50,210 bases of DNA from Candidatus Peribacteraceae bacterium (GTDB taxonomy: Bacteria; Patescibacteriota; Gracilibacteria; Peribacterales; Peribacteraceae). Location of the stretch: NCBI GenBank assembly GCA_030750465.1, contig JASMHZ010000006.1, positions 1 to 50,210 of the forward strand, given 5' to 3'. Below the pieces are notes generated by a model. It did no database searches. It was given only the letters and a program-made list of their open reading frames with translations, and was not told the DNA's origin. Within the stretch, counting starts at the first letter, position 1. Every line of letters begins with the position of its first letter. A program made the translations under genes and the position numbers. Positions 4,003-41,200 of the stretch are shown piece after piece.

Positions 4003-4043
4003 TATCCTTGGCGCTTTATTAATTCCCAACTAAGATTATCTCC

Positions 4044-5734: not shown

Positions 5735-7011
5735 TGAATGACCCATCAACTTCCATTGGCACTGACCAACCCGTGCGCACAAAGCCTTGGAAAGAAAGTA
5801 ATGCCATAGGCGAAGAAGAAAGACTTGCGGTTGAGCGAGTCATGCAGAGTAAAAATCTTTCCATGTTCCAAGGATCTTTTAAACCTAATCCACCTCTGAG
5901 TTTTTTGGGAGGACCGGAAGTGCAAACACTCGAAGCTCTTGCCAAAGATTACATCGGATCGTCTCATGCAATTTCGGTTAACAGCGCAACTTCCGGACTT
6001 TACGCGGCAGTTGGAGCACTTGGCCTTGGATTTGGTGATGAGATGATTGTTTCTCCTTATACAATGAGTGCTTGTGCAACTGCACCGCTCGTTTACGGTG
6101 CAATTCCTGTGTTTGCAGATGTGGAACGGGAGACCGGCTGCTTGGATCCCGATTCAATTAGAGCAAATCTAACACCAAGGACAAAAGCAATACTTGTAGT
6201 TCATCAATTTGGAATTCCCGCGGATATGGATGCGATAATGAGTATTGCCGACGAGCATGATCTGAAAGTTATTGAAGATTGCGCTCAGGCATGGGGAGCG
6301 AGTTTCAAGAATAAGCATGTTGGAACATTCGGCGACATTGGAGTATTTAGCTTCAACGTGCATAAGACCATCCAATGCGGAGAAGGAGGACTTTGTGTCA
6401 CTAATGATTCAGAGATTGCTCTTAGATTACAAATGATCCGCAATCACGGCGAAGCAATTGTTGGCGATACCCAGCACCATGATCTAACTAATATTATTGG
6501 ATTTAATTACAGAATGACTGAAATCAATGCTGCTATTGCGTCAGAACAACTAAAGAAGCTTGACGGCTTAAATGCAATCAGACTGGAACTTGTAAAAACC
6601 GTTTCCGAAGGTATTACTCACCACGAATGCCTAAGTGTTCCAAACCCGGAAGCTGACCGAAGTGCAACTTATTACGTTTATCCACTTCGATATCATGCAG
6701 AAAAATTCAATAACATGCCAAGAGCTGAGTTTGTACAGAAACTTAAGGGGCAAGGAATTATTTTCTACGAAGGATACATGAAACCGCTATACCTGCTTCC
6801 GATTTTCCAAAGCAGAACTGCTTACAAGAACGGCTATCCATGGACCGCGCCGGAAAACAGCGAGTCTGACCCGAACTATGCAAAAGGCGCTTGCCCTGTT
6901 TGTGAAGATTTGTTTGAAAACGAGTTTTTGATGAACTTACATTTGTGTCCACCTCAGACAATTGAAGATGCGATGGATGTGGTGAAGGCAGTTGATGTGG
7001 TGTGTGGTTAA
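5734..7011 (+). CDS. DegT/DnrJ/EryC1-family PLP sugar aminotransferase
   Basis: 425 residues of the sugar aminotransferase family. SVNSATSGLYAAVGALG is the PLP phosphate-binding region, VIEDCAQAWGAS carries the conserved Asp, and FSFNVHKTIQCGEGG carries the Schiff-base Lys at about residue 211. FNYRMTEINAAIASEQL is also typical. The C-terminal part has an unusual Cys-containing insertion (KGACPVCEDLF) near residues 384-395. It should convert a keto-sugar nucleotide to an amino sugar, presumably using the ketone made by the adjacent Gfo/Idh enzyme. Start ATG overlaps the preceding TAA. It is the last gene of its run; a repeat begins 4 nt after its stop. Confidence 0.9.
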   Translation: MNDPSTSIGTDQPVRTKPWKESNAIGEEERLAVERVMQSKNLSMFQGSFKPNPPLSFLGGPEVQTLEALAKDYIGSSHAISVNSATSGLYAAVGALGLGFGDEMIVSPYTMSACATAPLVYGAIPVFADVERETGCLDPDSIRANLTPRTKAILVVHQFGIPADMDAIMSIADEHDLKVIEDCAQAWGASFKNKHVGTFGDIGVFSFNVHKTIQCGEGGLCVTNDSEIALRLQMIRNHGEAIVGDTQHHDLTNIIGFNYRMTEINAAIASEQLKKLDGLNAIRLELVKTVSEGITHHECLSVPNPEADRSATYYVYPLRYHAEKFNNMPRAEFVQKLKGQGIIFYEGYMKPLYLLPIFQSRTAYKNGYPWTAPENSESDPNYAKGACPVCEDLFENEFLMNLHLCPPQTIEDAMDVVKAVDVVCG

Positions 7012-25184: not shown

Positions 25185-26122
25185 TGGAACACAAGATTCT
25201 TTGTTACACCGGCTCTCTATTCGCTCCCGAAGGCAAGGAAGTGCTCAAAAGCATCGGATCTGTTGTATTTGAGGAACCTTCCAAAGAAAATCTTGCTGAC
25301 AAAACGATGCTCGTAGTCCAACTTGGAGTGAGCGTTGATAAAGAGATGATCGACTGCGCTCCGAATTTGAAGTTCATAGCTACAGCAACGACAGGACTTG
25401 ACCATATTGATACCAAGTATGCCCAATCTAAGGGAATTGAAGTTGTAAGCCTTAAAGGAGAAGCCGGATTCCTAAACACAATTACCTCAACCGCCGAACT
25501 TGCACTTGGTTTAATTATCTCTCTGACAAGACAGATACCCTCCGCTAATAAGTCAGTCCTGAATGGTGAATGGAACCGCGAGAAGTTCAGAGGAAGTTCT
25601 TTAAGAGGAAAGACTCTTGGAATCGTAGGATATGGAAGGCTTGGAAAGATGATGGAGAGATTTGGAAAGGCGTTTGAGATGAATGTAGTGTTTTCTGACT
25701 CGAATGTGCCCGGAGGCCTTACTCTTGAAGAGCTTTTGGAAATTTCTGACGTAGTCTCGCTCCATGTTCCGCTTGATGAAAGCACAGAAGGATTGATTGG
25801 GACTTATGAATTGCAGATTATGAAACCAGACGCTATCTTGATTAATACTTCACGTGGAAAGATAGTTGATGAAGACTCCGTGATCGGCGCTCTTAAGAGC
25901 GAAATACTAGGAGGATATGGAACCGACGTGCTTTCTGATGAACTTGATTTTTCCGGAGACGAAATTAGGTCGCACTTAGTCAATTATTCAAAGAGCAATC
26001 CAAACGTTTTAATCACTCCTCATATTGGAGGGACAACAGCTGAATCGAGAGAAGCTACTGATATCTTTATAGCCAAGAAAATTAAAAGCTTGGTGCAAGA
26101 GAGCGTATTAACAAGTGGTTAA
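25184..26122 (+). CDS. D-isomer-specific 2-hydroxyacid dehydrogenase
   Basis: 312 residues with the SerA/PdxB/HprA-like layout. MLVVQLGVSVDKEMID and FIATATTGLDHIDTKYA are in the substrate domain. TLGIVGYGRLGKMMERF is the GxGxxG Rossmann loop, VVSLHVPLDES and AILINTSRGKIVDEDSV follow, and VLITPHIGGTTAES has the catalytic His (H-I-G-G). The Arg of INTSRG and a Glu are also in place. Substrate is unknown. At the end of a nonulosonate operon (TAATG overlap with neuA-like gene) it may make or reduce an alpha-keto acid derivative rather than act in serine synthesis. The stop sits inside the next repeat. Confidence 0.85.
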   Translation: MEHKILCYTGSLFAPEGKEVLKSIGSVVFEEPSKENLADKTMLVVQLGVSVDKEMIDCAPNLKFIATATTGLDHIDTKYAQSKGIEVVSLKGEAGFLNTITSTAELALGLIISLTRQIPSANKSVLNGEWNREKFRGSSLRGKTLGIVGYGRLGKMMERFGKAFEMNVVFSDSNVPGGLTLEELLEISDVVSLHVPLDESTEGLIGTYELQIMKPDAILINTSRGKIVDEDSVIGALKSEILGGYGTDVLSDELDFSGDEIRSHLVNYSKSNPNVLITPHIGGTTAESREATDIFIAKKIKSLVQESVLTSG

Positions 26123-26225
26123 ATTGTTAAATTGCTCGACAGAGCGAATTAAATACCCTGACACAAATAATAGAATCATCGATCATGCGTAACGCTCTGA
26201 CGAACAATTTAGCAATTTAACAATT
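26119..26225. repeat. Inverted AATTTAGC/TTAAATTG element, copy 1
   Basis: Starts at the stop of the hydroxyacid dehydrogenase. Arms are TTAAATTGTTAAATTG and AGCAATTTAACAATT, with CGACAGAGCG and CGCTCTGACG inside. The reverse complement of its right half matches the left half of the element at 41296-41400 nearly base for base over about 40 nt (TTGCTAAATTGTTCG, AGAGCGTTACGCATG). Confidence 0.8.
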
Positions 26226-26280
26226 CTACTTTTTTCAACAAAATTCTTACAAAACTATCTTATTCAGTTAAACTTGATTC

Positions 26281-27105
26281 ATGAGTCAGAAGGCTTTTCA
26301 TAATAAATGGGCAAAAATCCGCGAAGGCGGGAAAGATAGTAATCTCGAGGAGAGATCTATTTACGTTGAGAAAGGAAATAAGCCCCGCACGCAAAGGCAA
26401 CTGAGTCTTTATTATTATTTCAGATTTATCCAAAAGCATTTGGAGAAGATTGGAGCGAAGAAGGTTATCGAGCTTGGGTGCGGACGAGGAACAATAGGAC
26501 TTTATTGCAAGACATACATGGGATTGGATGTTTCTCTTATGGATAACGAGGAAGATGCAATAAAGATTGCACGTGAGGCTTTTGGAAGCAGAAATTTGGA
26601 TGCCGAATTTATTGTTGGAGACGCTCTTGATAGCACAATTCCTGAAAATATCTATGATGCAACGGTTTCAATCGGCCTGGCTGAACATTTGGACAACGTG
26701 GACGATTTGTACAGAGAGCAATTTAGAATTCTGCGCCCCGGAGGCGTAATGGTATCGCTTAATATTCCAAAAAAGTTTTCCGTTCAGGAATTAAACGTAG
26801 TTATGCGATCAATTAAAAAAATATTCGGACTATATAAGGATAGTGCAAGACGCGACTATTATCGAAATACATTTAGCGCCAAAGAATATGAAAAGTTTGC
26901 CAAAGATGTCGGATTCACAGACACCAAAGTGACTCATGTTTGCCCGTTCCCGATCTATGTACCGCTTCTTAGGTCGACTGACCGGTTAGTTACAACTATA
27001 AGAAGAGGAATTCTCAAAATCAGATCTCTTGTAATGAGGTATCCGTATAAAACGAATCGCGTGATAGCACATGCGCATTTTCTAGTAGCATTTAAACCCA
27101 TTTAA
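26281..27105 (+). CDS. Class I SAM-dependent methyltransferase (UbiE/MT11-like)
   Basis: 274 residues. VIELGCGRGTIGLYC is motif I, VSLMDNEEDAIKIAREAF ends strand 2 acidic, EFIVGDALDS is motif II, ATVSIGLAEHLDNVD is the SxGLAEHL post-motif, and LRPGGVMVSLNIPK is motif III. The C-terminal part has a basic amphipathic stretch (RRGILKIRSLVMRYPYKTNR) that may touch membrane or a lipid-linked substrate. It is separated from the glycan operon by a 158-nt repeat-bearing spacer, so it may have its own promoter. Confidence 0.85.
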   Translation: MSQKAFHNKWAKIREGGKDSNLEERSIYVEKGNKPRTQRQLSLYYYFRFIQKHLEKIGAKKVIELGCGRGTIGLYCKTYMGLDVSLMDNEEDAIKIAREAFGSRNLDAEFIVGDALDSTIPENIYDATVSIGLAEHLDNVDDLYREQFRILRPGGVMVSLNIPKKFSVQELNVVMRSIKKIFGLYKDSARRDYYRNTFSAKEYEKFAKDVGFTDTKVTHVCPFPIYVPLLRSTDRLVTTIRRGILKIRSLVMRYPYKTNRVIAHAHFLVAFKPI

Positions 27106-27116
27106 GTAGTTCCCCT

Positions 27117-27459
27117 CTCCTTTCTTTTGTCGATACAAAAGAAAGGAGACAAAGAAAAAATCAAGGCAAACACAAACTCGCTCGAAAGCATAATTAGAGA
27201 TATATAGGGGTGCAGAACGAATTGGATGCACTCGGAATTAGAGGCCTTTAGATGTAGAGCCTCATCCAATTCGTTCTTGCGCTAAAGAACTAGAAATACA
27301 AGGCTTTCGAGCTCAAACAGTGTGTTTGCCTTTCTAATAGTTATAGAAATGGAGGGGTCGCCCGCCACGGGGGGTGCGAGGGGCAAGTGGGTGGGGATTG
27401 GCGGGCGTTGATTTTTTTCTTTCCCTCTTTCTTTTTGTATCAAGACAAAAAGAAAGAGG
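27117..27459. repeat. Large nested palindromic element, candidate MITE or structured RNA
   Basis: This is the main content of the 559-nt gene-free stretch 27106-27664. Each end is a perfect hairpin: 14 bp at 27117-27148 (CTCCTTTCTTTTGT) and 15 bp at 27424-27459 (CCTCTTTCTTTTTGT), similar to one another. Between them, AAAGAAAAAATC pairs with GATTTTTTTCTTT, AAGGCAAACACA with TGTGTTTGCCTT (12 bp), CTCGAAAGC with GCTTTCGAG (9 bp), AGAACGAATTGGATG with CATCCAATTCGTTCT (15 bp), and GAGGC with GCCTC. A GCCCGCC/GGCGGGC stem is at 27360-27406. No long ORF is seen. Confidence 0.7.
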
Positions 27460-27467
27460 CTAGAAAA

Positions 27468-27563
27468 TTATCTTTTTCCATAAAACTCCCTGACTACTCT
27501 ATCCCCCGCAAACCCAACAGAAACCATCAGGATTCCGAATAAAATCAACCCGAGCCCTAACAT
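27468..27563 (-). CDS. Possible small single-span membrane peptide
   Basis: A 31-residue ORF (MLGLGLILFGILMVSVGF followed by AGDRVVREFYGKR). It has one hydrophobic helix with Gly spacing and a basic C-terminal tail, the usual topology of small membrane peptides. There is an in-frame stop two codons before the ATG and no clear Shine-Dalgarno. It could instead be the remnant C-terminus of a larger membrane protein cut by the adjacent palindromic element. Confidence 0.3.
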   Translation of the reverse strand: MLGLGLILFGILMVSVGFAGDRVVREFYGKR

Positions 27564-27612
27564 TGGTCAATGTAAACGAATAACCAATAACCTCCATTAG
27601 AAAAGCTAATTT

Positions 27613-27642
27613 TTTACATAAAAACACATTTCTGATTATAAT
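27613..27642 (+). promoter_or_regulatory. Sigma70-type promoter
   Basis: TTTACA (27613-27618) and a perfect TATAAT (27637-27642) are separated by 18 nt, ending 22 nt before the ATG at 27665. It is the best promoter match in the window and drives the small secreted-protein gene. Confidence 0.6.
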
Positions 27643-27664
27643 ATCCCCGACCCTCCCCAATCGT

Positions 27665-27975
27665 ATGAATATCTTTTCGAAAGTACTCTTACCGAGCCTT
27701 CTTATATTCCTGCCGAGCCTTGTTCTGGCGGTATTTGTATCTCCCGGAAACCTGATACTATCCTCTGCTTATAATGGAAAGCCGACTGAATTCGATTACA
27801 AGCTTTATATTCACGCAAATCATCCCAAAGATGAAGAAATGGATGTATCAAGAACTTTAGAGGTGAAGTTTGTATAACCAGAGAAAATGGTAAATGGACT
27901 CTGAATAGTGAGAGGTTTATTATATCTGACATGAAGAAGATTGCTCCACAGTTATGTACCCTAATACCTGACTAA
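27665..27975 (+). pseudogene. Small signal-peptide protein, probably frameshifted
   Basis: The first frame (27665-27877) gives 70 residues: a basic start (MNIFSK), a hydrophobic core (VLLPSLLIFLPSLVLA) ending in A-V-F-like cleavage context, then a polar mature part (SPGNLILSSAYNGKPTEF, DYKLYIHANHPKDEE). It stops at a TAA at 27875. A second frame, open from 27835 and ending at 27973-27975, reads GEVCITRENGKWTLNSERF and IISDMKKIAPQLCTLIPD, which looks like genuine protein with two Cys. A single-base change between 27835 and 27874 would join them into an exported protein of about 103 residues. Alternatively the short first frame is the whole gene. Confidence 0.45.
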
Positions 27976-28053
27976 AAATCATGAATCTTACAATAATAAC
28001 CACTTCGCTGAAACAACATAAGCTAATCACTACATTTATTATAATTGTTATCT

Positions 28054-28128
28054 TGGTAGCCCCAAGGAGAATCGAACTCCTGTTACCAGGATGAAAACCT
28101 GGCGTCCTAACCACTAGACGATGGGGCC
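28054..28128 (-). tRNA. tRNA-Glu (anticodon TTC)
   Basis: On the minus strand GGCCCCA pairs with TGGGGCT (one G-T at the first pair). The anticodon stem is CCAGG/CCTGG with loop TTTTCAT giving anticodon TTC. The T arm has GGAG-TTCGATTC-CTCC, and the D arm has GTGGTTAGGAC. The 3' CCA is encoded (28054-28056). All arms are intact. Confidence 0.95.
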
Positions 28129-28235
28129 ACAGAGATATAAGGATCAGTTGATTCGCACGACCACGACTCCACTTCGCTCTACGAGCTTCGCGGAGCACGT
28201 GGGGCCTAGAACGAGAGTGAGTATATGACATAGAT

Positions 28236-28268
28236 AAAAACCCCGCCAGATAAACTAGCGGGGTTTTT
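28236..28268 (-). terminator. Rho-independent terminator of the 136-residue membrane protein gene
   Basis: AAAAACCCCGC and GCGGGGTTTTT form an 11-bp stem around an 11-nt loop, 10 nt past the minus-strand stop at 28279. Flanking A and T tracts make it usable in both directions. The 107 nt between it and the tRNA hold only a GC-rich palindromic stretch (CCACG ... CGTGG, 28152-28203). Confidence 0.85.
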
Positions 28269-28278
28269 CTGCGGCTTT

Positions 28279-28689
28279 CTATTTCCTCTTAAAACGCTTC
28301 GCTTTCTTATCTAATCCCATCTTCTCTTTAACCTCTTTCATAATTAGCTCAAATTCTTCGTCGGCGATTTCTACTCCATGCGCCTTGAATACTTCCTGCA
28401 TTACAGCATTCTTTTCTGCCTTGTCGTGTGATTTGAACTTTCCAAATTTACCTTTCATCATACCGCCAGAAAGGAGTACGGAGCCAAGGAAGCCAAGAAC
28501 AATAAGCCAAACCCAGAGTTTCTTTAGCTTATCTTTGGACAAGTGCTTAATTGCCCATACGGCAAAAAGTACTATTCCAAGCGTTAGAAGAACGCCGAAG
28601 ATTCCATGCAGTTGCATGAACTGCAAACTGTGAAATGATTTTGTAAAAGGATACATAAATATAAGGATGGAAAGAGTTATCCACTCCAT
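28279..28689 (-). CDS. Small membrane protein, unknown
   Basis: 136 residues that I cannot assign to a family. Three hydrophobic helices are visible: ITLSILIFMYPF, LHGIFGVLLTLGIVLFAVWAI, and LWVWLIVLGFLGSVLLSGGMM. A cytoplasmic, charged C-terminal tail has VMQEVFKAHGVEIADEEFELI and a terminal KKAKRFKRK. A TATAAT overlaps the annotated ATG (28688-28693), so translation may start at the ATG at 28656 instead. It lies between two hairpin terminators and is therefore monocistronic. Confidence 0.75.
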   Translation of the reverse strand: MEWITLSILIFMYPFTKSFHSLQFMQLHGIFGVLLTLGIVLFAVWAIKHLSKDKLKKLWVWLIVLGFLGSVLLSGGMMKGKFGKFKSHDKAEKNAVMQEVFKAHGVEIADEEFELIMKEVKEKMGLDKKAKRFKRK

Positions 28690-28722
28690 TATATCATTTT
28701 TTTACTAAATATTGATATTTCT

Positions 28723-28750
28723 AAAAAACCCCGCCAAAGGCGAGGTTTTC
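28723..28750 (-). terminator. Rho-independent terminator of the zinc-ribbon gene
   Basis: AAAACCCCGCC, a 3-nt AAA loop and GGCGAGGTTTT form a compact stem with one A-C mismatch, 27 nt after the minus-strand stop at 28778. An A-tract on the plus strand (T-tract on the minus) follows. Confidence 0.85.
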
Positions 28751-28777
28751 TTGGTTAATGGCAAAGTGAGAAAATAA

Positions 28778-29056
28778 TTACTCTTTACTAGCCATGAAAC
28801 ACTCTTTACAGAGAACAGGTTTGCCACCTTCTTCCTCTGGACGAGGCTTGAAGGGAACCTGGCACTCTTTGCTGCACTGTGCACAAACAGCGTCGTGCAT
28901 CTGTCGGTTTGCCATGCGGTCTGCCTTTTTGGCAGCGCGGCAATCCTTACAGCGTTGAGGAGCGCTTAGGTCCTTGGAGGCGTAAAACTCCTGTTCACCC
29001 TCTGTGAAGGTGAATTCGTTGCCGCAGTCGCGGCAGGTGATCTGCTGATCAGCCAT
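28778..29056 (-). CDS. Small double zinc-ribbon protein
   Basis: 92 residues with two Cys4 modules. The first is CRDCG (8-12) plus CKDC (about 36-39), with FTFTEGEQEFYASK between, the pattern of the zinc-ribbon zf_Tbcl/CxxC-x(17-19)-CxxC family. The second is CAQCSKECQV (58-67) plus CKECF (83-87). Such small zinc-binding proteins are common in Patescibacteria and Chloroflexi and are suspected to bind nucleic acid or ribosomes; the function is unproven. It is a single gene with its own terminator. Codon use and charge (basic centre, KKADRMANRQM) fit nucleic-acid binding. Confidence 0.85.
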   Translation of the reverse strand: MADQQITCRDCGNEFTFTEGEQEFYASKDLSAPQRCKDCRAAKKADRMANRQMHDAVCAQCSKECQVPFKPRPEEEGGKPVLCKECFMASKE

Positions 29057-29192
29057 AAACGTATAAGAAGGAAATAAATGGACAGCTACCTTCTCACACG
29101 ATCTTAGAATCAGATTGTACTTCCGAAGGTTCTGCTATGGGGAATAGTGGCGGAATTGGGGCTATTGTCAAGAAATATTATCTCCTTATCTC

Positions 29193-29272
29193 CTCTCCCC
29201 CTTCCTGCCCATCCGAAGCTCCGAAGGAACGAAGGAGGGAGAAGGGGGAGAGCCTGCCTGCCGGCAGGCAGG
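29193..29272. repeat. GC-rich palindromes in a 566-nt gene-poor stretch
   Basis: CTCTCCCCCTTC (29193-29204) pairs with GAAGGGGGAGAG (29241-29252), with GAAGCTCCGAAGGAACGAAG between. It is followed by a perfect 20-nt palindrome, CCTGCCTGCCGGCAGGCAGG (29253-29272), a sequence I associate with dispersed repeats in other Patescibacteria. The rest of 29057-29622 holds only the small Cys-rich ORF and the palindrome at 29459. Confidence 0.7.
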
Positions 29273-29295
29273 TACATACAGTGGATCTAGAAGTG

Positions 29296-29346
29296 TCAGC
29301 AATGGCCTCCACCGCAGAAGCCGCAATTACAGTGTTCTCCTGACAT
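29296..29346 (-). CDS. Possible 16-residue Cys/His-rich peptide
   Basis: ATG to TGA encodes MSGEHCNCGFCGGGHC, with four Cys, two His and five Gly. This is a metal-binding-like composition not expected by chance in a non-coding spacer. There is no good Shine-Dalgarno, and its length makes coding status uncertain. It lies about 240 nt upstream of the zinc-ribbon gene on the same strand. Confidence 0.3.
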   Translation of the reverse strand: MSGEHCNCGFCGGGHC

Positions 29347-29458
29347 TATTGATTGGTGGGTTAAGAAATAGATGTTGTTATCCTAATTTCAATCGTTGAC
29401 TAAGTCTGTGAACCTCTTCACAATACGACTGCTTTTCTATTTCTTTGAATATTCAAAT

Positions 29459-29583
29459 CAAACCCTCGTCCCCGACCCTTCTCCCACAGGGAGAAGGGAG
29501 CTACTTCTGTGTTAAAACAAGCCAATCTCCATCATAGAAGTAGCTCCCCTCTCCTTCAAGGAGAGGGGCAGGGGGTGAGGTTG
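29459..29583. repeat. Long CCTCxCCCC-type palindromic repeat
   Basis: The inner stem AGCTACTTCT (29499-29508) pairs with AGAAGTAGCT (29536-29545). Outside are two smaller hairpins, CCCTTCTCCC-ACA-GGGAGAAGGG and CCCCTCTCC-TTCAA-GGAGAGGGG, and the ends CAAACCCTC / GTGAGGTTG. It is the fullest copy of the family also at 11937, 14228 and 32066. Confidence 0.8.
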
Positions 29584-29622
29584 AAAAATTATAAATAATT
29601 CCAGCAGCCATCTCCACTTCTA

Positions 29623-30207
29623 CTACCGCAACAAATAAATTTGCCACGGAAACGGATACCTCTGATCGATAATTTCGAAACCTGCATCTTTAATAATTTT
29701 TGAGAACTTCCTCCTGCCCCAGCAATGCACATGATCCGGTCTGTTCCCAAACCTGAGTATATATTTTAATCTTAAAAAGTTTGAAATTCTGAATAACGGC
29801 TCATTTGGTACGCTCAAAATCAGATAATTTTTGTTCAAAGTCCTTAGTGAACTTAAGGCAGACTTTGTATCCGGCAAGTGCTCCAGAACTTCCAGACACA
29901 TAACAACATCTGTATCTACATTAATCTCCGATGTATTTAGCAAATCACCAGTTTTTAAAATCAAATCAGGATGCAGATTTCGACCTCGCGATAAAGCAGC
30001 TTCATCAATATCTATACCTTCGCATCGAACACTCGGATACTTATTTTTAATCTTATTTATTACGAATCCTTCGGCACACCCCAAATCCAGAACGCTTTTG
30101 CCATTCGTTTTTCCAAAAAGATCCAAGATGTGCACCAAAAACCTTTTAACAAAGAATGCTTGTATCTTGCCCGCATTCATATATTTATCCCAGTTGCCCG
30201 AAGACAT
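29623..30207 (-). CDS. Class I SAM-dependent methyltransferase
   Basis: 194 residues. VLDLGCAEGFVINKI is motif I, CEGIDIDEAALSRGR follows, LKTGDLLNTSEI is motif II, and VVMCLEVLEHLPDTK is the E-V-x-E-H-L post-motif seen in UbiG/Methyltransf_11-type enzymes. LILSVPNEPLF is motif III. The C-terminus is rich in aromatic and basic residues (CWGRRKFSKIIKDAGF). It is 12 nt downstream of pyrK and probably shares its transcript, although a pyrimidine role is not obvious. A lipid or glycan target would fit the family. Confidence 0.85.
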   Translation of the reverse strand: MSSGNWDKYMNAGKIQAFFVKRFLVHILDLFGKTNGKSVLDLGCAEGFVINKIKNKYPSVRCEGIDIDEAALSRGRNLHPDLILKTGDLLNTSEINVDTDVVMCLEVLEHLPDTKSALSSLRTLNKNYLILSVPNEPLFRISNFLRLKYILRFGNRPDHVHCWGRRKFSKIIKDAGFEIIDQRYPFPWQIYLLR

Positions 30208-30219
30208 GTTTCTATCCTA

Positions 30220-31023
30220 CTAGAACTCGTGCTTTCTCCCAACATCATCACGATGATATTTACCAAAGTCGGTGATTTGAACGCATATGTCGTTATTTAT
30301 CACAGGTCCATCAATGCATAACCTGATTCCAAGAGGATCTACCACGCAATTCCCGCATAATCCGTATCCGCATTTCATGTAGCGTTCTAAACTGAGCTGT
30401 GATGGTATCTTTTTATCTGAAGATATTCCGGAAACTGCCTTAAGCATCATCTCGGGACCGCATGCCAAAAACTCATCGAATGATTCCCCTCCTTCGATCA
30501 TTTCACTTAGCTGATTTACGTTGTATCCCTTGTAACCTTCTGACCCATCGTCGGTTGCCACGTGCAAAGTTACACCTTTAAGTGATCCAAGTTCATCGAT
30601 ATAAAGTAAATGATCCTTTGAACGTGCTCCTACAAACACATGAACATCGCAATTGTCTTTGATTGCCTCATGCGCCGTGAAGTACATCGGTGCCGCACCG
30701 TATCCTCCTGCAAGCAGAGCAAGTTTCTGACCTTTCTTCCATTCATAATTCGTTCCAAACGGACCTCTGAGTCCCACCAAGTCCCCTTCTTTCTTCTTTG
30801 CAAGCTCTTTTGTCATGTCCCCGACTGCAAAGAACGTGATTTTGAGTTGCTTGCCATCATCATAGGCAATGCTCATGGGAACTTCATCAACTCCCGGAAG
30901 CCAGATCATTCCAAACTGCCCGGGGCGCGCTCCTAAACTGACTTCAAATGTAAAAGTCTGAACATCAGCCGTTTCTTTCTTCACCGAAGCAATCCTGTAT
31001 GTAGTTGGCAATCGATTCTGCAT
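30220..31023 (-). CDS. pyrK: Dihydroorotate dehydrogenase electron transfer subunit, PyrK
   Basis: 267 residues of the ferredoxin-reductase type that passes electrons from PyrD (class 1B) to NAD+. The FAD domain has RPGQFGMIWLPGVDEVPMSI (R-P-G-Q-F and P-M-S), the NAD domain has LLAGGYGAAPMYFTA and the C-terminus has the [2Fe-2S] cysteines in CGYGLCGNCVV plus a fourth in RLCIDGPV. The C-x4-C-x2-C-x(n)-C arrangement is complete. It lies after pyrD with a 97-nt spacer that holds a tandem-repeat hairpin. Confidence 0.93.
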   Translation of the reverse strand: MQNRLPTTYRIASVKKETADVQTFTFEVSLGARPGQFGMIWLPGVDEVPMSIAYDDGKQLKITFFAVGDMTKELAKKKEGDLVGLRGPFGTNYEWKKGQKLALLAGGYGAAPMYFTAHEAIKDNCDVHVFVGARSKDHLLYIDELGSLKGVTLHVATDDGSEGYKGYNVNQLSEMIEGGESFDEFLACGPEMMLKAVSGISSDKKIPSQLSLERYMKCGYGLCGNCVVDPLGIRLCIDGPVINNDICVQITDFGKYHRDDVGRKHEF

Positions 31024-31040
31024 GCATGAATATTGTATAA

Positions 31041-31130
31041 GTGAATAGTGAAAAGTGAATAGTGAATAGTGCTTTTAAATATTCGATTCTCTTTAGTAAC
31101 TATTCACTTTTAACTATTAACTATTCACTC
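31041..31130. repeat. Inverted heptamer (GTGAATA) tandem repeat between pyrD and pyrK
   Basis: GTGAATA-type heptamers (31041-31071) and their complements (31098-31130) face one another across about 26 nt. The pyrD stop codon (TAG, 31121-31123) lies inside the right arm, so the repeat supplies the last codons of pyrD. Confidence 0.85.
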
Positions 31131-32044
31131 ATAGAACCAATAAGCTCCGAAATTTCGGATACTCCCTCCGTCTCACACCACTCATTCATTTCATCACACA
31201 CTTTTTTGAATACATCCTGCCCGCGCTCGCCAATCGATGTTCCGATTCCGACTAATGAGGCCCCTGCAATCATCATTTCGAGCGCATCTTCTCCTGTATG
31301 CACTCCTCCCGTTCCGATTATGGGAAGTTTCCCACCGGTTGCTTTGTAAACATCGTGTATGCATCTGACTGCGATTGGCTTTAAACCGGGACCGGAGAGT
31401 CCTCCCACCTTATTAGCAAGTATTGGCTGACGGCTTTTGAGGTCAATTGCCATTCCCGGCCCAAAAGTGTTAACCGCCGTGAAGCCATCTGCCCCGGCTT
31501 CCGCGCAAGCAACTGCAATAGCTCCAATATCATCCACATTCGGAGAGAGTTTGATAAATATTGGAACATCTCCGCTTACTTTTTTAACTTCTTCTGTTAC
31601 TTTCTTCGCATCCGGTGCGCTGCAGGCAAAAGGTTTGCCACATTCATCTTCAACATTTGGGCAACTGATGTTAACTTCGAGAAAATCCGGTCCTAGTCCG
31701 CAGATAATCTCTGCAATTGCTACAAAGTCCTCAACTTTTCCCGCAACAATATTCGCAATCAGAGGCGCAGGCTTATCTTTTAGGTACTCGCCAATCTCTT
31801 CGCGCGCTTTTTGGGGACCAGCATCCGGAAGTCCTACAGCATTAAGCGTCCAATGTTCGTTTGCAATAACAGTCGGATTCGGATGACCCTTGTGTTCCCG
31901 GATCCAGAGCGACTTTGTGGTAATTCCACCTGCTCCATTCTCCACAACACGCTTCCAGCTAGAAGCTGTAATACCCCAAATGCCGGAAGCCAATACCGTA
32001 GGGTTTGAAAATTCGACGTTTAGTATTTTTTGGCTGAGGTTCAT
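31121..32044 (-). CDS. pyrD: Dihydroorotate dehydrogenase, class 1B catalytic subunit, PyrD
   Basis: 307 residues. LASGIWGITASSWKRVV opens the barrel, ITTKSLWIREHKGHPNPTV holds the substrate Lys, and the class 1 active-site Cys is in DFLEVNISCPNVEDECG. FIKLSPNVDD, GFTAVNTFGPGMAIDL, GGLSGPGLKPIAVRCI and IIGTGGVHTGEDALEM (FMN-phosphate site) follow. The partner pyrK confirms class 1B (NAD-linked, soluble). ATG 32044 (MNLSQK) fits the family; the frame is open further upstream. The C-terminal MSE and stop are encoded by a heptamer repeat arm. Confidence 0.93.
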   Translation of the reverse strand: MNLSQKILNVEFSNPTVLASGIWGITASSWKRVVENGAGGITTKSLWIREHKGHPNPTVIANEHWTLNAVGLPDAGPQKAREEIGEYLKDKPAPLIANIVAGKVEDFVAIAEIICGLGPDFLEVNISCPNVEDECGKPFACSAPDAKKVTEEVKKVSGDVPIFIKLSPNVDDIGAIAVACAEAGADGFTAVNTFGPGMAIDLKSRQPILANKVGGLSGPGLKPIAVRCIHDVYKATGGKLPIIGTGGVHTGEDALEMMIAGASLVGIGTSIGERGQDVFKKVCDEMNEWCETEGVSEISELIGSMSE

Positions 32045-32065
32045 CAGTTTAATTCTAGCGCAATA

Positions 32066-32195
32066 AACCCTCATCCCCAACCCGACCTCACCCCCAAACC
32101 CTCTCTCCTCTGCGGAGGAGAGGGGGCTTATAAAGAAATATTCCTTTATCTCCCCTTCTCCGGCTTGAAGTTGAAGGGGCCGGGGGATGAGGTCG
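32066..32195. repeat. CCTCATCCCC-type palindromic repeat between pyrG and pyrD
   Basis: Outer arms are AACCCTCATCCCC and GGGGGATGAGGTCGG. Inside are CCTCTCTCCTC-TGC-GGAGGAGAGGG and ATAAAG ... CTTTAT stems. It ends 2 nt from the pyrG stop. It has the same architecture as 29459-29583. Confidence 0.8.
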
Positions 32196-32196
32196 G

Positions 32197-33915
<1,719 letters not shown>

Positions 33916-33980: not shown

Positions 33981-36299
33981 TTAAACCACCAAAATCTTGT
34001 CCGGATCTATGTCATAGTGCTCATATCCGGGCCTTAAGTCCTTTGCCACTTTGCGTCCCGTAAGCTTAGCATTGTAGGCATGTGTTTTAAGTCCTCCTGT
34101 AATGAAATGCTGTGGGATATTTCTCTCTTGCCACCATTCAACCGGATCTCGCCTGAATTTCTCAAATGCATCTCGAGTTTCCATAAGAGAACAAGTAGGC
34201 ACCATTAATTTGAGAATGCATTCATCAGCAAATCCATCCTTTTCACATCGTCTGTATTGTTCAACTAAATGATGCCAATAATGATCATCTTTTGCGGTTG
34301 GCAGCAAGTCTGTTAGAGGTACAGGACATGGAACTGTAAATCGCGTTGTCATATCCACAAGTTCTTCCGTTGTTTCACCCATTGTTCCTCTACCTCCGTT
34401 GACCGTTATAAATCTGTCGCCCCAATAGGCAAGGTTTGTCTGCCTGTGCCTCCTGTGCCTTCCGTCAAATAGTGCGAACGCATGAGCAGAATCATTCGGC
34501 GTTTGGTTCGGTAATACATTCGCAGCTCCAATCAACTGAACTTGAGGATATTTCTGAACAATTTCCGACAGAATCGTCATCCAGCCGGATGAAGCTCCCG
34601 AAGCAATTCCATAGTTAGGGTCATCTTGTAGTCTTGCTTCAATATACGGAGGTAATTGTTCTCTTAAAAGATCTGTCGATTGCTGCGTAAAGGAACAGAA
34701 GAATGAATCGACACTCGATAGATTTCTGAATTGCTCCAATCGATCGATATCGATAAACGAAACTCCCTGCAAAGCTCTTAGACGACCCCCGGGTGCAGAC
34801 CAAAGTATCTGCGATTCCCCTTTTCTGACCATATCACTTAGCGCTTCCATCCATCCGGTCTCTATACTTGTTTCATGATGATCGCTAACCTCATCGGCAA
34901 CACCATTGCCGGTTCGAAGACGGCTCGAAATGTATGTCCAAATGCCGGTTTCTCCCGCAAGTTGTCTGATTTCATGCGGATTGGGCAATGTTTTGCACAC
35001 AAGTGCATATTTCAAAGTATGGTGAGAGCCTGCATTGCGCTGAATAAGTGATTGCAATGCTTGTACTGCAGGATCTGCTTCGAATCTTTCTTGTGCATCA
35101 GCTAATTGTCCCTGAAGATCGCCACAACTAGCTCTTCCATGAACAGCTGCATATCGCGCATCAGCCCAAAGCTCCTCTGGGCTGTCACTTGGAATTAATA
35201 TCACTCCATCTGCTCCAACAATCAGGCCCTCCGCTCCATCAACATCATCTAGTTCTGCGGTGAGCCTAATAATTTCATCTTTTCTCCGGCTATAGAACTG
35301 TTCTCCGGATCTTTCAATGACAGTTCGAGGTACGCTGACTGATGTTCTTTCTGATTCAGGAGTTAGAGGAAATAACTTCCCGTTTAACCTGACTTCTTCC
35401 TGAGATACATCACTCTTTCCGGTGTTCAATTCGGCATGCCTGAGCTGGCTTGTGCCTGCATCTCTCTGGCCTAAACCGGTGCTTATCCAAAGCGAATTGC
35501 TGTGTTTAACATCATCGTGAGTAGTGTCTTCCGACAAGATCAATATATCTTCTAAGCTCGCATCCCAACGAAATCCGCGAATATCAAACGGTGGCAGTAA
35601 ATTTGAATGGCCGTTTCTCTTGCCTCGTTGAGGAGGTTGGAATCTTGCAAGAAAACGTTTGCCACCATCCGCAAGAAGCCAAGGCCAATCATTATCGATA
35701 AGTGCATTTGCCAGATTTCTTCTAAACCATGCATCCAGTTCTAATGGAATTTCTAAATTTCCATCTGCATCGTATTCCAGTTGATCAGAAACGTGAAGCC
35801 TGCCATGCCCAATCATTTCATCCAATTGTTCTCCGCAATACGGCTCAACATTGGGAGGCAGTGTGAAAAGTTCTGCTACCTTAGGGCGTACATCCCCCTG
35901 CTCAAGCAGTCGAGCGAAAGCATCGTAAAGAGGATATTCAATAGTACCGGTATCATTATCTCTGGAAGAAAAGAACTCCAGGTCCGCATGCGCCTGCAGT
36001 TCAAAACCTTCCGGAGTAAATCGAAAGTCATTAATTCTTCCATTAAGTCCGATCCTCGCAAGAAAGCTTCTGATCATTAAATTTACATACTGTTTTACTT
36101 CATCAATTCTCGTTAAATTGTCCTTGAGCATGTCCTGATCCAGGCTTTTATCTCCCAAGTCCTTTTCCCCCCATGTAATAACAGCTTGTGCAACTCCAAC
36201 TTTAAATTCCGTACCATCCCCTTGAATAATACGTTCATTTAATTGCCCAAGAGAAGTAAGCGTTCCATCGCCGGTTTTAGTTATGCGATAAGCGCACAT
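33981..36299 (-). CDS. Large protein with a C-terminal LOG/PpnN-like nucleotide hydrolase motif
   Basis: 772 residues. About 560 N-terminal residues are unfamiliar to me, soluble-looking, with WISTGLGQRDAG and LQGQLADAQERFEADPAVQALQ regions. Residues 565-670 look like the Rossmann core of LOG/lysine-decarboxylase-like proteins: GIASGASSGWMTILSEIV, VQLIGAANVLPNQ, then FITVNGGRGTMGETTEEL, equivalent to the P-G-G-x-G-T-x-x-E signature. LOG and E. coli PpnN split nucleoside 5'-monophosphates into base and ribose 5-phosphate. PpnN (about 454 residues) has extra regulatory domains, so a long N-terminal part is not without precedent. It is last in an operon with a phosphoribosyltransferase and a GuaB-like enzyme (59-nt gap). 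The Pro-to-Asn change in PGGxGT is notable. Confidence 0.6.
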   Translation of the reverse strand: MCAYRITKTGDGTLTSLGQLNERIIQGDGTEFKVGVAQAVITWGEKDLGDKSLDQDMLKDNLTRIDEVKQYVNLMIRSFLARIGLNGRINDFRFTPEGFELQAHADLEFFSSRDNDTGTIEYPLYDAFARLLEQGDVRPKVAELFTLPPNVEPYCGEQLDEMIGHGRLHVSDQLEYDADGNLEIPLELDAWFRRNLANALIDNDWPWLLADGGKRFLARFQPPQRGKRNGHSNLLPPFDIRGFRWDASLEDILILSEDTTHDDVKHSNSLWISTGLGQRDAGTSQLRHAELNTGKSDVSQEEVRLNGKLFPLTPESERTSVSVPRTVIERSGEQFYSRRKDEIIRLTAELDDVDGAEGLIVGADGVILIPSDSPEELWADARYAAVHGRASCGDLQGQLADAQERFEADPAVQALQSLIQRNAGSHHTLKYALVCKTLPNPHEIRQLAGETGIWTYISSRLRTGNGVADEVSDHHETSIETGWMEALSDMVRKGESQILWSAPGGRLRALQGVSFIDIDRLEQFRNLSSVDSFFCSFTQQSTDLLREQLPPYIEARLQDDPNYGIASGASSGWMTILSEIVQKYPQVQLIGAANVLPNQTPNDSAHAFALFDGRHRRHRQTNLAYWGDRFITVNGGRGTMGETTEELVDMTTRFTVPCPVPLTDLLPTAKDDHYWHHLVEQYRRCEKDGFADECILKLMVPTCSLMETRDAFEKFRRDPVEWWQERNIPQHFITGGLKTHAYNAKLTGRKVAKDLRPGYEHYDIDPDKILVV

Positions 36300-36358
36300 T
36301 GCGCATAATATATACTATTTGGCTTATGTGTCAATATATCTCCATCTTTTGTTAACTA

Positions 36359-37180
36359 TCACTTTGTCCTACCCAAATGCTCCGTAAGCAGTACTTGTTT
36401 TTTGTTATCGATAAACTCTCTCCCTCGTCGAGCAATTGAAGCTCGAATGTCATGCAGTAAAGTTTCACCATCAGGCAAGTAAAGACTGGAAACTTGAGAT
36501 CTGGGACCGGAAAGATCAAGTTGAGCAACAACTTTCGGTTCAGGATCATAGATACGACCATTGGTTCCTTTTAAATCACCCATAGTATTTTGCAATCGTT
36601 CGACTCCCCCGTAACCTTTATCTGCCACAAGTACAACACCGACAATATTGTGATTTGTCTGTTCGATTATGCCATGCGTCTGAGCATTCATGGTTCCACC
36701 AGTACTTATTAGATCATCAACAACCGCAAGCTGTTCTTTAGGTTCATGCTTCGTAATACCATCAAAATGCAAGCGAGTTGCCGCAAATTCCATAATCAGC
36801 GGGATAGCCGGTCTATCATCTTTCGGTTGAGTTACACATCTGGATAATCCCATTGGAAGATCAATGTCTTCGGGTAATTGTTGTTGAATCGCGGATGCAA
36901 GAATTGCTCCTCTGTCCTCTTCACTGCTAAGCCTTGTTGCTCTTGTAAATACTTCCGATCCAACATACAACATAAGCCTCGCAATGCTATCTAAGACATA
37001 GCGTGGAGTGGGAGGTGTTTGCTCTGTAAGAGAATTCCACATGAATTTGGTATCTTCGCTACGCTTTCCATTCGCAACCACAGGTTGCAAAGAACAATCA
37101 TCAAGAACTTCGAATAGCACGTGAGCATCTTGTTCAAGTTGTGTTTGCCGATACGCATCTGGTTCATCTATTGGATTCAT
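36359..37180 (-). CDS. Phosphoribosyltransferase-domain protein
   Basis: 273 residues. LAVVDDLISTGGTMNAQ (about 151-167) is a type I PRTase PRPP-binding loop (hydrophobic-VVDD-x-xSTGGT), followed by VGVVLVADKGYGGVERL, the usual strand-and-loop after it. The N-terminal 110 residues and a C-terminal 70-residue tail are extra compared with Apt or Hpt (about 170-180). RPAIPLIMEFAATRLHFDGI may form the hood. It would join a base to PRPP. It lies between the GuaB-like gene (42-nt gap) and the LOG-like gene, so a purine base is the best guess. Confidence 0.8.
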   Translation of the reverse strand: MNPIDEPDAYRQTQLEQDAHVLFEVLDDCSLQPVVANGKRSEDTKFMWNSLTEQTPPTPRYVLDSIARLMLYVGSEVFTRATRLSSEEDRGAILASAIQQQLPEDIDLPMGLSRCVTQPKDDRPAIPLIMEFAATRLHFDGITKHEPKEQLAVVDDLISTGGTMNAQTHGIIEQTNHNIVGVVLVADKGYGGVERLQNTMGDLKGTNGRIYDPEPKVVAQLDLSGPRSQVSSLYLPDGETLLHDIRASIARRGREFIDNKKQVLLTEHLGRTK

Positions 37181-37222
37181 TTTTTGGCGGAAATATTAGT
37201 GGTTATTAGAAAAAATTCAAGC

Positions 37223-38902
37223 TTAAATCTGCATAGGCTTCCCCTCCACGTATCCAGAGGGCCTCTGAAGTATTATTCGAGCAAACCTATACATTTCATC
37301 TATCGTCATAGCTCCTGAATACGTCACTCCAGATGTAATTCCATCAACGTAATGATGAATAATATCTGCTGTAGACATCCTTCCTTCTTTTGGGAATATT
37401 GGAACACCACTTACTCCCTCCGAGCGACTACCGACTATGCGTCTGAATAGCTCTATATCAGATTCTTTACCTTTGCCACCATTTGCTCGAAGAGTAGCTT
37501 CCATTCTTGATGCCATTCCTGCAGATTCAATATACAATCTGCCATCATCTCTTGTTTGCCACCTTGGCGGACTTTCGTGAGTAGCAGTAAATTCAGTTCC
37601 AAGCATGACCTGAGAAGCACCTGCAGCCAAAGCTAATGCTGCATCACGGGGATGCTCTATGCCTCCATCAGCCCAAATGTGCTTTCCATATTTTCTTGCT
37701 TCTTTTGCACATTCCATAACTGCACTAAATTGCGGTACCCCAACTCCAGCCATTATCCTTGTTGAACACATTGCCCCGGGACCCAAACCAACTTTCACAA
37801 TATCAGCTCCCGATGCAAGAATATTCTTGGTCCCCTCTTTTGTTACAACATTTCCCACTATCAAGGTGACAAGACCTTTTGCCCTTTGCTCGATAAGATC
37901 TCTTACTTTTTCAATATTGTCGTAAGCAATCATGCCATTATCTATGTGTGCGGCATCCAAGACAATTCCCCTGACTTGCAAATCAATAAGCAACTTGGCT
38001 CGCTCAACAGGATCATTGTTGAATGCTCCTATTGCAGCTGTCATTGCAAGACCACCTGTTTTTGGATGAATGTGCGGCTGGTACCGCAACCGCATTGGAG
38101 TGTTCATTGTAAACGCACCCACCAATTTTTCTTCATCATCAATAACAGGTAACATCGATAATCTTCTTCGATCCATAATCTCCGTTGCTTCCCGCACACT
38201 CATTTCTGTTCCGGCAGTCGGCCAATCGGTTCTCATTAGTCCAGATGCTCTCTGATCTTCATTAATACCACCTGGAACTTCGTCAAGATTTACTACACCT
38301 TTGTATTTCTTCTGCTTGCCAACAACAGCAACAGCTCTGGCGCCGCGCTTTTGTGCCCAGTGCTGAATCTCTCCTAATCTTGCATTGCCCTTGGACCATA
38401 CTGCCGTTTCATAGTCTGGATTACGCGAGTGCAGGAATTTTGAAGTTCTTCTCATCTGTTTATCAGTAAGATCCTGCGGTAACACTGCATTAGCACCCAT
38501 TCTTGCAGCTGCTTCTGCTTGTCTCTCGCCTGTTACCTTATTCATATTTGAAATTGCAATCGGAGTATTTCCGTATTCGTCTGGAGGCCTGAAATTAACA
38601 TCATCACGAGACAATGAATCCGGAACGCCCAACTCATTGCCTAAAGCTTTTAGAGCTCTTCGATATTCAGCAGCACTCTCAAGTGCTGACTGTTGTAATC
38701 TTGCCAATGTTTCCTTGTCGGTTGATTCTACATCAATTAAACCTTCACTTTCGGTTGCCTGCCAATGAAGAATTCCGACAGACTCCCACTGGCTTGTTGA
38801 AGCCAAATCGCGAACTCTATCTTCATATGAATTATAAGGCCTTAGAGTTACGTCCTCATAAGCAAGATTCTCATCGCCTGACTCGAATAGTAGTTTTGGC
38901 AT
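37223..38902 (-). CDS. IMP dehydrogenase/GMP reductase family protein with CBS domains (GuaB1-like)
   Basis: 559 residues. LAYEDVTLRPYNS is the family opening. IAISNMNKVTGERQAEAAARMG and AVLPQDLTD resemble actinobacterial GuaB1 (ANM-x-x-V-x-G, VLPQD), which acts as a GMP reductase. CBS motifs lie at about 165-270 (MSVREATEIMDRRRLSMLPVID, LVGAFTM). The barrel core has IVLDAAHIDNG, LIVGNVVTKEG, the catalytic Cys379 in GLGPGAMCSTR, and WADGGIEHPRD. The C-terminus has EGVSGVPIF and GITSGVTYSGAMTIDEM. There is an extra helical insert of about 60 residues near 40-105. It reads GMP to IMP or IMP to XMP; I favour reductase but cannot settle it. First gene of its operon. Confidence 0.85.
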   Translation of the reverse strand: MPKLLFESGDENLAYEDVTLRPYNSYEDRVRDLASTSQWESVGILHWQATESEGLIDVESTDKETLARLQQSALESAAEYRRALKALGNELGVPDSLSRDDVNFRPPDEYGNTPIAISNMNKVTGERQAEAAARMGANAVLPQDLTDKQMRRTSKFLHSRNPDYETAVWSKGNARLGEIQHWAQKRGARAVAVVGKQKKYKGVVNLDEVPGGINEDQRASGLMRTDWPTAGTEMSVREATEIMDRRRLSMLPVIDDEEKLVGAFTMNTPMRLRYQPHIHPKTGGLAMTAAIGAFNNDPVERAKLLIDLQVRGIVLDAAHIDNGMIAYDNIEKVRDLIEQRAKGLVTLIVGNVVTKEGTKNILASGADIVKVGLGPGAMCSTRIMAGVGVPQFSAVMECAKEARKYGKHIWADGGIEHPRDAALALAAGASQVMLGTEFTATHESPPRWQTRDDGRLYIESAGMASRMEATLRANGGKGKESDIELFRRIVGSRSEGVSGVPIFPKEGRMSTADIIHHYVDGITSGVTYSGAMTIDEMYRFARIILQRPSGYVEGKPMQI

Positions 38903-39082: not shown

Positions 39083-41200
39083 TTAAAATATACCCTGTGC
39101 TGAATACAATCCAACAGTGAGTACGCTCACGATAGTCATTAGTTTGACCAGAATATTTATAGAAGGCCCTGAAGTATCCTTGAAAGGATCCCCTACGGTA
39201 TCGCCTACAACAGCTGCCTTATGCGGATCTGAGCCTTTTCCACCTAAGTTTCCCGCTTCAATGTACTTCTTGGCGTTGTCCCATGCTCCTCCGGAATTTG
39301 CCATAGAGATTGCAAGGAGTACTCCTGTTACAAGAGCGCCGGCAAGAAGTCCTCCCAAAGCTTCTGCTCCCAGAACTAAGCCGACGACGACAGGCGAAGC
39401 TACTGCCATAAGACCTGGGAGCATCATCTCTTTGATGGCGGCAGCAGTTGCAATACTTACACAACGCGCTGAGTCCGCTTCCGCTTCTCCCTCCATAAGT
39501 CCCTTGATTGTTCTGAATTGTCGTCTGACTTCTTCGATCATTTTAAACGCCGCACGTCCAACCGCTTTCATTGTCATTGCGGAGAATAGGAATGGAAGTG
39601 TGCCTCCCAAGAGGAGCCCGATAAGAGTAAGTGGATTCATTAAGTTAATTGATTCCAATCCCGCAGCTGTAGAGAATGCTGCAAAGAGCGCGAGCGCTGT
39701 AAGGGCTGCTGAACCGATAGCAAATCCTTTTCCAATTGCAGCCGTGGTATTTCCAGCTGAGTCGAGTGCATCTGTTCTGGCTCTTACTTGTTTTGGAAGT
39801 CCTGCCATTTCTGCAATACCTCCTGCGTTATCCGCAACAGGACCATAAGCATCTACAGCCAAAGTTATTCCAAGAGTTGAAAGCATTCCTACTGCACTTA
39901 TTGCAATTCCATAAAGCCCTGCGGAGAAGTATGCAACTGCAATCGCCAAACATATGAATAGAACAGGAAGAAAGGTGGAGGCGTATCCGAGAGCAAGGCC
40001 ATCAATGATCGTTGTTGCCGCTCCGGTCTTGGAAGCGTCAGCCAAGCCTTTGACTGGTTTGTACTTATCGGAAGTGTAGTACTCCGTAATCATTCCAATA
40101 ATTACTCCAACCACTAATCCTGATATCAATGCAAAGAAAACTCCAAGATATACCGTTTCTGGAAGCATCTGTTTGCTTAAGAAATATGCACCAACAATCA
40201 TTAGGCCTGAAGACAGGAAGATGCCATTCTTAAGAGCACCATGCACATTCTCACCTCCCTTTCTTGTCCTGACTACGAATGTTCCGATTATGCTTACGAT
40301 AATTCCAAAACCGGATATAAATAACGGAAACAAAATTGCAGATTCCATATTCGAACCCCATGCAACCGAGGCTGTAACCCCGATAAGCATCGCCGCAACC
40401 AATGATCCGACATAACTTTCAAACAGATCTGCTCCCATTCCCGCAACATCGCCGACGTTATCTCCAACATTGTCTGCAATAACAGCAGGATTTCTTGGGT
40501 CATCCTCCGGAATTCCTGCTTCGACTTTTCCGACCAAATCAGCCCCTACATCCGCCGCCTTTGTATATATCCCTCCTCCCACACGTCCGAACAAAGCAAC
40601 CGAAGAAGCTCCAAAGCTGAATCCTGCAATTACCTGAAGGGCATCAGGAAGAAATAGGCCGAATTTCTGAGTTAGAACCAGCATTGTTCCAATAAGTCCC
40701 AGAAGACCTAATCCTACAACGGAAAGCCCCATAGTCGCTCCGCTTAGGAAAGCAACTCTGAGTGCCGAAGATAATCCCGTTCTCGCAGCCTGTGTAGTTC
40801 TTACGTTTGCCGCCGTCGCAGTTCTCATCCCAATGAAACCCGCTAGCACAGAGCAAACTGCACCGAAAGCGAAGCTGACTGCAGTATATGGATTGGACCA
40901 TGCGCCTGTGCGAGCATTCTGAAGTCCTGTATCCAGAAAAACAAACAAGAGAATTCCAACGATAATTACAAATACAACTATTACGCTGTACTCACGCTTG
41001 AGGAAAGCCATAGAACCCTGACGAATACTCTTTGCAATCGCCTCCATTTTTTCTGTTCCCTGACCTTTGGTACCAATAATCATTCTAAAGACTGCAGCAA
41101 CTATTAATGCCAATACGGCAGTAATCAGAACTACAAAGAGGGAATTCGAGAATGCATCTGAAAACGGGAGATAAGATGAAGATAAAAATGAATCGATCAT
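39083..41200 (-). CDS. hppA: Membrane-bound ion-pumping pyrophosphatase, HppA (K+-dependent type)
   Basis: 705 residues with about 15-16 membrane helices. It hydrolyses PPi and pumps H+ or Na+. The substrate loop is [35 protein letters not shown]-like (DVGADLVGK, then [16 protein letters not shown]), and [10 protein letters not shown] and [15 protein letters not shown] are the other PPi/Mg sites. The [10 protein letters not shown] motif has Ala where K+-independent pumps have Lys, so this is the K+-dependent class. Ion specificity is not settled by what I can see. PPi from the many nucleotidyl and PRPP reactions encoded nearby would be its substrate. Its C-terminus is duplicated 55 nt downstream. 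Confidence 0.95.

Follow-up and report, generated by a model that had tools for sequence, protein, structure and literature searches.

The locus in the window

We analysed a stretch of 50,210 nucleotides (positions 1 to 50,210 of contig JASMHZ010000006.1, assembly GCA_030750465.1; hereafter, the window) from a Candidatus Peribacteraceae (Peregrinibacteria) bacterium whose draft genome measures 1.0 Mb and is 82% complete, focusing on three neighbouring genes that encode a GuaB1-like protein of the guanosine monophosphate (GMP) reductase type, a divergent purine-type phosphoribosyltransferase (PRTase), and a giant protein of the LOG/PpnN superfamily. As a preliminary description of this DNA had reported, the three open reading frames (ORFs) lie close together on the minus strand, separated by 42 nt (GuaB1 to PRTase) and 59 nt (PRTase to giant). 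The giant gene is in turn 68 nt from pyrG.

37223..38902, minus strand: GuaB1-like GMP reductase-type protein, 559 amino acids (aa) (ORF list, profile searches, solved-structure match, dyad alignment)
36359..37180, minus strand: divergent purine-type PRTase, 273 aa (ORF list, profiles, loop VVDDLISTGGT for phosphoribosyl pyrophosphate, PRPP)
33981..36299, minus strand: giant LOG/PpnN-superfamily protein, 772 aa (ORF list, profiles, profile comparison, alignment)
35304..36104, minus strand: N-domain part of the giant gene, residues 66-332 (homology to stand-alone proteins of three relatives)
33984..34679, minus strand: LOG core part of the giant gene, residues 541-772, with R619 and E642 (profiles, alignment; fold of relative L062)

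The motifs named in that description are present, namely Cys379 (at the end of GPGAMC) in the GuaB1-like protein, VVDDLISTGGT (residues 153-163) in the PRTase, and GGRGTMGETTE (residues 635-645) in the giant, and the identities of the trio exceed chance because profiles match and motif residues are invariant among relatives. A scan of genome contigs with a single protein yielded zero relatives and a mixed alignment held no conserved stretch usable for searching; a closer alignment run against genome contigs yielded five loci, in Candidatus Peregrinibacteria / Peribacterales / Peribacteraceae. The survey sample comprised 74 genomes of the family, in most of which the stretch ahead of pyrG (hereafter, the slot) was inspected and its genes typed by homology. 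G-numbers below denote genomes and L-numbers the loci compared (e.g., L078 is G031:C14, L091 lies in G082, and L117 in G080). Complete genomes of the Peregrinibacteria group are reported to encode essentially complete nucleotide synthesis (PMC4736985), and literature searches returned nothing direct on such an operon or on Patescibacteria nucleosidases.

A LOG core without the PpnN gating domains

The C-terminal part of the giant carries a LOG/PpnN-like core, as the preliminary description had proposed: the Lysine_decarbox/LOG domain (PF03641) matched residues 590-700 at 30.7 bits (curated cut-off, 27), and in profile comparisons columns 541-776 of the giant family matched short LOG at 98.1% and columns 551-689 matched PpnN at 95.7%. 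R619 and E642 align with R241 and E264 of Escherichia coli PpnN (YgdH), and this Arg/Glu pair recurs in 12 of 12 aligned giants at the PpnN spacing of 23 residues (24 in G017). For the PGGxGTxxE motif of LOG and PpnN a catalytic role has been predicted (PMC6717881), and it is from the LOG/PpnN literature that the motif Glu is taken as catalytic; a crystal structure exists for PpnN carrying E264A (PDB 9hs3). The LOG core together with the R619/E642 pair is why we predict nucleosidase activity for the giant.

The Rossmann core that the preliminary description expected from structure prediction was borne out on a relative, L062, whose AlphaFold model is mostly of pLDDT (predicted local distance difference test) 70-90 in its LOG part and at residues 527-828 matches LOGs and PpnN (Z ~10, root-mean-square deviation 3.6-4.4 over 165-200 residues). 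The same fold matches include the SLOG domains of TRPM and ThsA, and a YAcAr match was found for G034 (E 5e-4), in which the GG-x-GT motif is degenerate; these would suit a non-catalytic, SLOG-like nucleotide sensor that regulates neighbouring enzymes, with the N-domain as effector. We regard such a sensor as quite improbable, given that Arg and Glu are retained in every giant compared and that canonical PpnN occupies the same place as the giant in other genomes.

Both PpnN domains that flank its core are missing from the window giant, in which neither PAG1 (DUF4478, PF14793) nor PAG2 (PpnN_C, PF11892) was matched in searches that gave 68.7 and 127.6 bits, respectively, for a control PpnN from G016. 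The giant is thus not a PpnN by the definition of PMC6717881, instead carrying an N-domain of ~330 residues and a linker of ~200 residues ahead of the core. For its C-terminal part the best alignment is with short LOGs (cytokinin riboside 5'-monophosphate phosphoribohydrolases; PF03641, TIGR00730) of the same bacterial family, whose core and PGGxGTxxE-like motif it shares. The giant is ~4x longer, and its whole-protein TIGR00730 score of 14.3 bits is below the cut-off of 96.35.

The absence of both (p)ppGpp-binding PpnN domains also bears on the stringent-type control raised in the preliminary description, which stays possible in principle because RelA/SpoT domains were detected in each of the 14 genomes tested, but the giant has neither of the domains with which PpnN binds the signal. 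PpnN regulation has been described as Proteobacteria-specific (PMC6717881). The (p)ppGpp-contact residues of PpnN were considered as a test and dropped, since the residue numbers available, including those of a review, misfit the alignment. Separately, most of the family genomes tested have, besides normal RelA/SpoT proteins, a weaker RelA_SpoT match inside a very long frame of ~920-1300 aa (G000:C7:14786-15079 and similar frames of 11 other family genomes).

The conserved unit is the place beside pyrG

What is conserved across the family is the place adjoining pyrG, not the three-gene operon. Genes usually run from proS or uvrC through a small gene and, in many cases, hppA to the variable slot and pyrG. 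In the window hppA (upstream), the trio, and pyrG-pyrD-pyrK (downstream, 33912-30220) lie on one strand throughout, a setting that the preliminary description had not noticed.

39083..41200, minus strand: hppA-type membrane pyrophosphatase, the other slot border (named from sequence)
32197..33912, minus strand: pyrG, CTP synthase, one border of the slot (profile search)
31121..32080, minus strand: pyrD, dihydroorotate dehydrogenase (profile search)
30220..31023, minus strand: pyrK, dihydroorotate dehydrogenase electron-transfer subunit (profile search)

Beyond these genes, GC skew in the window (26000-32000) switches sign at about 28 kb, from positive to negative, in the vicinity of a tRNA-Glu (28054-28128).

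A LOG-superfamily protein adjoins pyrG in 31 of the 74 family genomes (13 giant, 7 canonical PpnN, 11 short LOG), counts that are lower bounds because some slots could not be read end to end. Full-length giants (725-923 aa, n = 11) occur in the window, G034, G023, G081, G026, G084, G011, G070, G021, G027, and G017, and two more are cut off by contig ends (G083, G019); a match in G001 (E 6e-4; a 940-aa frame remote from pyrG) was excluded from these counts. Canonical PpnN fills the slot in G001, G015, G016, G024, G065, G082, and G096, the G016 protein having DUF4478, LOG, and PpnN_C and scoring 440 bits where the equivalog model sets its cut-off at 450. Short LOG fills it in G004, G008, G018, G020, G032, G060, G063, G088, G091, and G094, plus an incomplete copy in G087. 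Two further slots hold a 172-aa giant remnant (G069) and a 480-aa protein with the N-domain present and without a LOG match (G031). The giant gene is opposite in strand to pyrG in G023, G027, and G017, as are PpnN and short LOG, and in some genomes (e.g., G071, G095) hppA or the small gene directly adjoins pyrG. Further genes encountered in the slot encode adenosine deaminase, IMPDH, a class-II amidotransferase, and a PfkB-type kinase, or are GTP-cyclohydrolase-II-like or PRAI-like, and the slot can also be empty. Within the window's genus alone its content ranges over giant (window), PpnN (G001), short LOG (G004), and a set of genes with the N-domain (G003). At L091 (G082; 3205-6946), a class-II glutamine amidotransferase, adenosine deaminase, and IMPDH stand beside canonical PpnN.

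The exact GuaB1-PRTase-giant trio was found in none of the relatives compared and was seen in the window only; the sister species G003 keeps GuaB1 and PRTase, with N-domain, PRAI-like, and GTP-cyclohydrolase-II-like genes in place of the giant. The operon of the preliminary description stands in part: a GuaB1-like gene lies close to a giant or N-domain gene repeatedly (window, G034, G033, G031, G003), and the full combination was not seen again. The strongest rival for the trio is that its genes are separate accretions at a hot spot beside pyrG, each acting alone and forming no functional module. Slot content that varies strongly even within one genus, or is empty, a PRTase found in the window's genus only, and a trio seen in one genome all agree with it. 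Against it, most identified insertions are nucleotide-related, and GuaB1-like genes occur in the slot only, five of the six genomes that have them also having the N-domain. On balance we hold this explanation to be unlikely, if the most serious of those considered.

The neighbouring GuaB1-like and PRTase genes

The GuaB1-like protein has CBS (E 7.4e-10) and an IMPDH/GMPR barrel (IMPDH domain, E 3.9e-63) with the active-site Cys379, and its best solved-structure match is the GMP reductase 7oy9. In IMPDH, the Arg-Tyr dyad of the flap activates water. This dyad is absent from the GuaB1-like proteins of the window, G003, G034, and G022. E. coli GuaB retains it, as do the IMPDHs of G034 and G082. 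Because the dyad is absent and a GMP reductase is the best match, conversion of GMP to inosine monophosphate (IMP) is the likelier reaction, in agreement with the earlier GuaB1 assignment. The protein differs from characterised GuaB1-type GMP reductases (NF052358; PDB 7oy9) in its ~95 extra N-terminal residues and its equivalog score of 350 bits, below the cut-off of 675.

GuaB1-like genes were found in 6 of the 74 genomes (window, G003, G034, G022, G033, G031). Their co-occurrence with the N-domain in five of the six gives a hypergeometric value of 7e-4 per genome and 0.03 per genus. An IMPDH/GMPR-family gene was undetected in 9 of the 11 genomes carrying a full-length giant. Canonical-type IMPDH occurs in five genomes (G034, G022, G031, G033, G082), four of the genes adjoining adenosine deaminase, and GMP synthase in 12 of 14 genomes tested; G003 has it, and the incomplete draft to which the window belongs yielded none. 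Two matches in this superfamily look unusual: at L078 (3316-5412) a GuaB1-like gene looks interrupted, its match extending from an ORF of 597 aa into a second piece of 76 aa and containing a single TAG, and at G055:C1:318317-319075 an IMPDH-like match contains 17 in-frame TGA codons, probably from a lineage of the class in which TGA encodes an amino acid.

The PRTase appears to be of purine type, as previously suggested, judged by its PRPP loop and weak purine-PRTase profile matches: in NCBIfam it scores best with models for adenine PRTases and for archaeal hypoxanthine/guanine PRTases (E ~2e-7), and its best PDB match is APRT (E 1e-3). It is larger (273 aa) than those enzymes and under every curated cut-off (Pfam Pribosyltran, 19.9 bits vs 26.3), and among 59 relatives compared it was found in the window and G003 only, both of the window's genus.

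An undescribed N-terminal domain

The N-terminal part of the giant, unfamiliar to the preliminary description, comprises the ~200-residue linker and, in the first ~330 residues, what sequence comparison indicates is an undescribed domain, without known sequence relative, that exists also on its own. Giant-family columns 25-323 match stand-alone proteins of G033, G003, and G080 at 97.8% (hhalign), and these have no Pfam match. The window copy is divergent, falling below threshold in a genome-wide profile search and scoring 22.4 bits over residues 66-332 in hmmsearch against a profile built without the window, where 2000 shuffled sequences reached 7.9 bits at most. Conserved residues (H, D, R, G, R, Q, E) suggest a ligand-binding or catalytic role. 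Residues 1-180 of the L062 model are mostly of pLDDT 70-88 and barely covered by the fold comparison. The sole PDB-sequence match of the N-domain profile, a phage protein at 15 bits (E 0.06), was discarded. In G003 (L074, 1637-2470) and G033 (L033, 7232-8116) the stand-alone match crosses one in-frame stop (TAG and TAA, respectively), hinting that the gene starts elsewhere or that its 5' part has decayed.

The N-domain has recurring neighbours. It occurs in giants of three further families of the class (G341, G235, G320), away from pyrG, and in G235 the giant LOG is followed by a PRAI-like gene (PF00697, 1.3e-4) and a GTP cyclohydrolase II (PF00925, 9e-18). In G033, G003, and G080 the stand-alone form is found together with PRAI-like and GTP-cyclohydrolase-II-like genes, which in G062 occur with the N-domain absent. 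The slot at L117 (236-5733) encodes a pair of GTP-cyclohydrolase-II proteins, in one of which two stretches are matched, along with DUF84/NTPase_I-T, PRAI-like, and N-domain proteins. The PRAI-like proteins showed no homology to the giant family in profile comparison. The neighbours share domain matches with GTP cyclohydrolase II (including the PRK07198 family) and PRAI (TrpF), while scoring far below the equivalog cut-offs.

These associations suit the strongest rival for the N-domain, a route in which the GTP-cyclohydrolase-II-like protein would open a nucleotide ring, the PRAI-like protein isomerise the phosphoribosylamine, and the sugar phosphate be freed or processed by the N-domain, by LOG, or by both. 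Such partners are missing at the window locus and at most giant-LOG loci, and as an account of the giant we judge it improbable. Somewhat less doubtful, and still tentative, is the broader proposal of the N-domain as a new domain that acts on nucleotides and is central to an undescribed nucleotide ring-opening or catabolic route in this class of the candidate phyla radiation, either with GTP-cyclohydrolase-II-like and PRAI-like partners or by LOG fusion. If true, two distinct nucleotide-dismantling chemistries would share one genomic place.

A putative nucleotide-dismantling enzyme in place of PpnN

The reading we favour, with a confidence a little better than even, is that the giant is a nucleoside 5'-monophosphate (NMP) nucleosidase that replaces PpnN, bears a new front domain, and is joined here to a GMP reductase and a purine PRTase. 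What we observe is how the genes are ordered, their homology, the conservation of motifs, and replacement at the same place; we predict the substrate, the activity, co-transcription, and the role of the N-domain. The giant would hydrolyse the N-glycosidic bond of an NMP, giving base and ribose 5-phosphate, and the N-domain, in place of the (p)ppGpp-gating domains of PpnN, probably gates or regulates the LOG core. In the window's species the trio is probably co-transcribed ahead of the CTP synthase gene, so that a GuaB1-type GMP reductase (GMP to IMP), a purine-type PRTase (base and PRPP to NMP), and the giant together would interconvert, salvage, or dismantle purine NMPs, with purine units passing among GMP, IMP, the free base, and ribose 5-phosphate.

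Several points weigh against this reading. The window giant's own AlphaFold model (with five relatives) is too poor (pLDDT 37.7) to be used, and Foldseek on it ranked the LOG 5its second (E 0.02). Any activity of a giant-family member is a prediction, and because the motif of G034 is degenerate (PGAQGSEFE), not every giant need be active. The N-domain, lacking a known sequence relative, could itself be the main enzyme. The test of its co-occurrence with GuaB1 is weak at the genus level. With the full trio known from a single draft, the operon may have arisen recently, and the ties among its parts may be loose.

A nucleotide-depleting anti-phage system, also raised in the preliminary description, found no support and is very improbable. 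Some defence systems do use nucleotide-degrading enzymes; at this locus the neighbours are metabolic, the place beside pyrG is fixed, and PADLOC gave no meaningful match (its one hit, to GajB, scored a weak 17 bits across 67 residues and was put down to chance).

Together, these comparisons reveal a purine operon that is an unusual combination of components of known enzyme kinds, and an undescribed domain with recurring partner genes. PpnN, short LOG, and the giant swap at one place, even within a genus, in a lineage with very small genomes, and this swapping series offers natural material on how NMP nucleosidases gain and lose gating domains.

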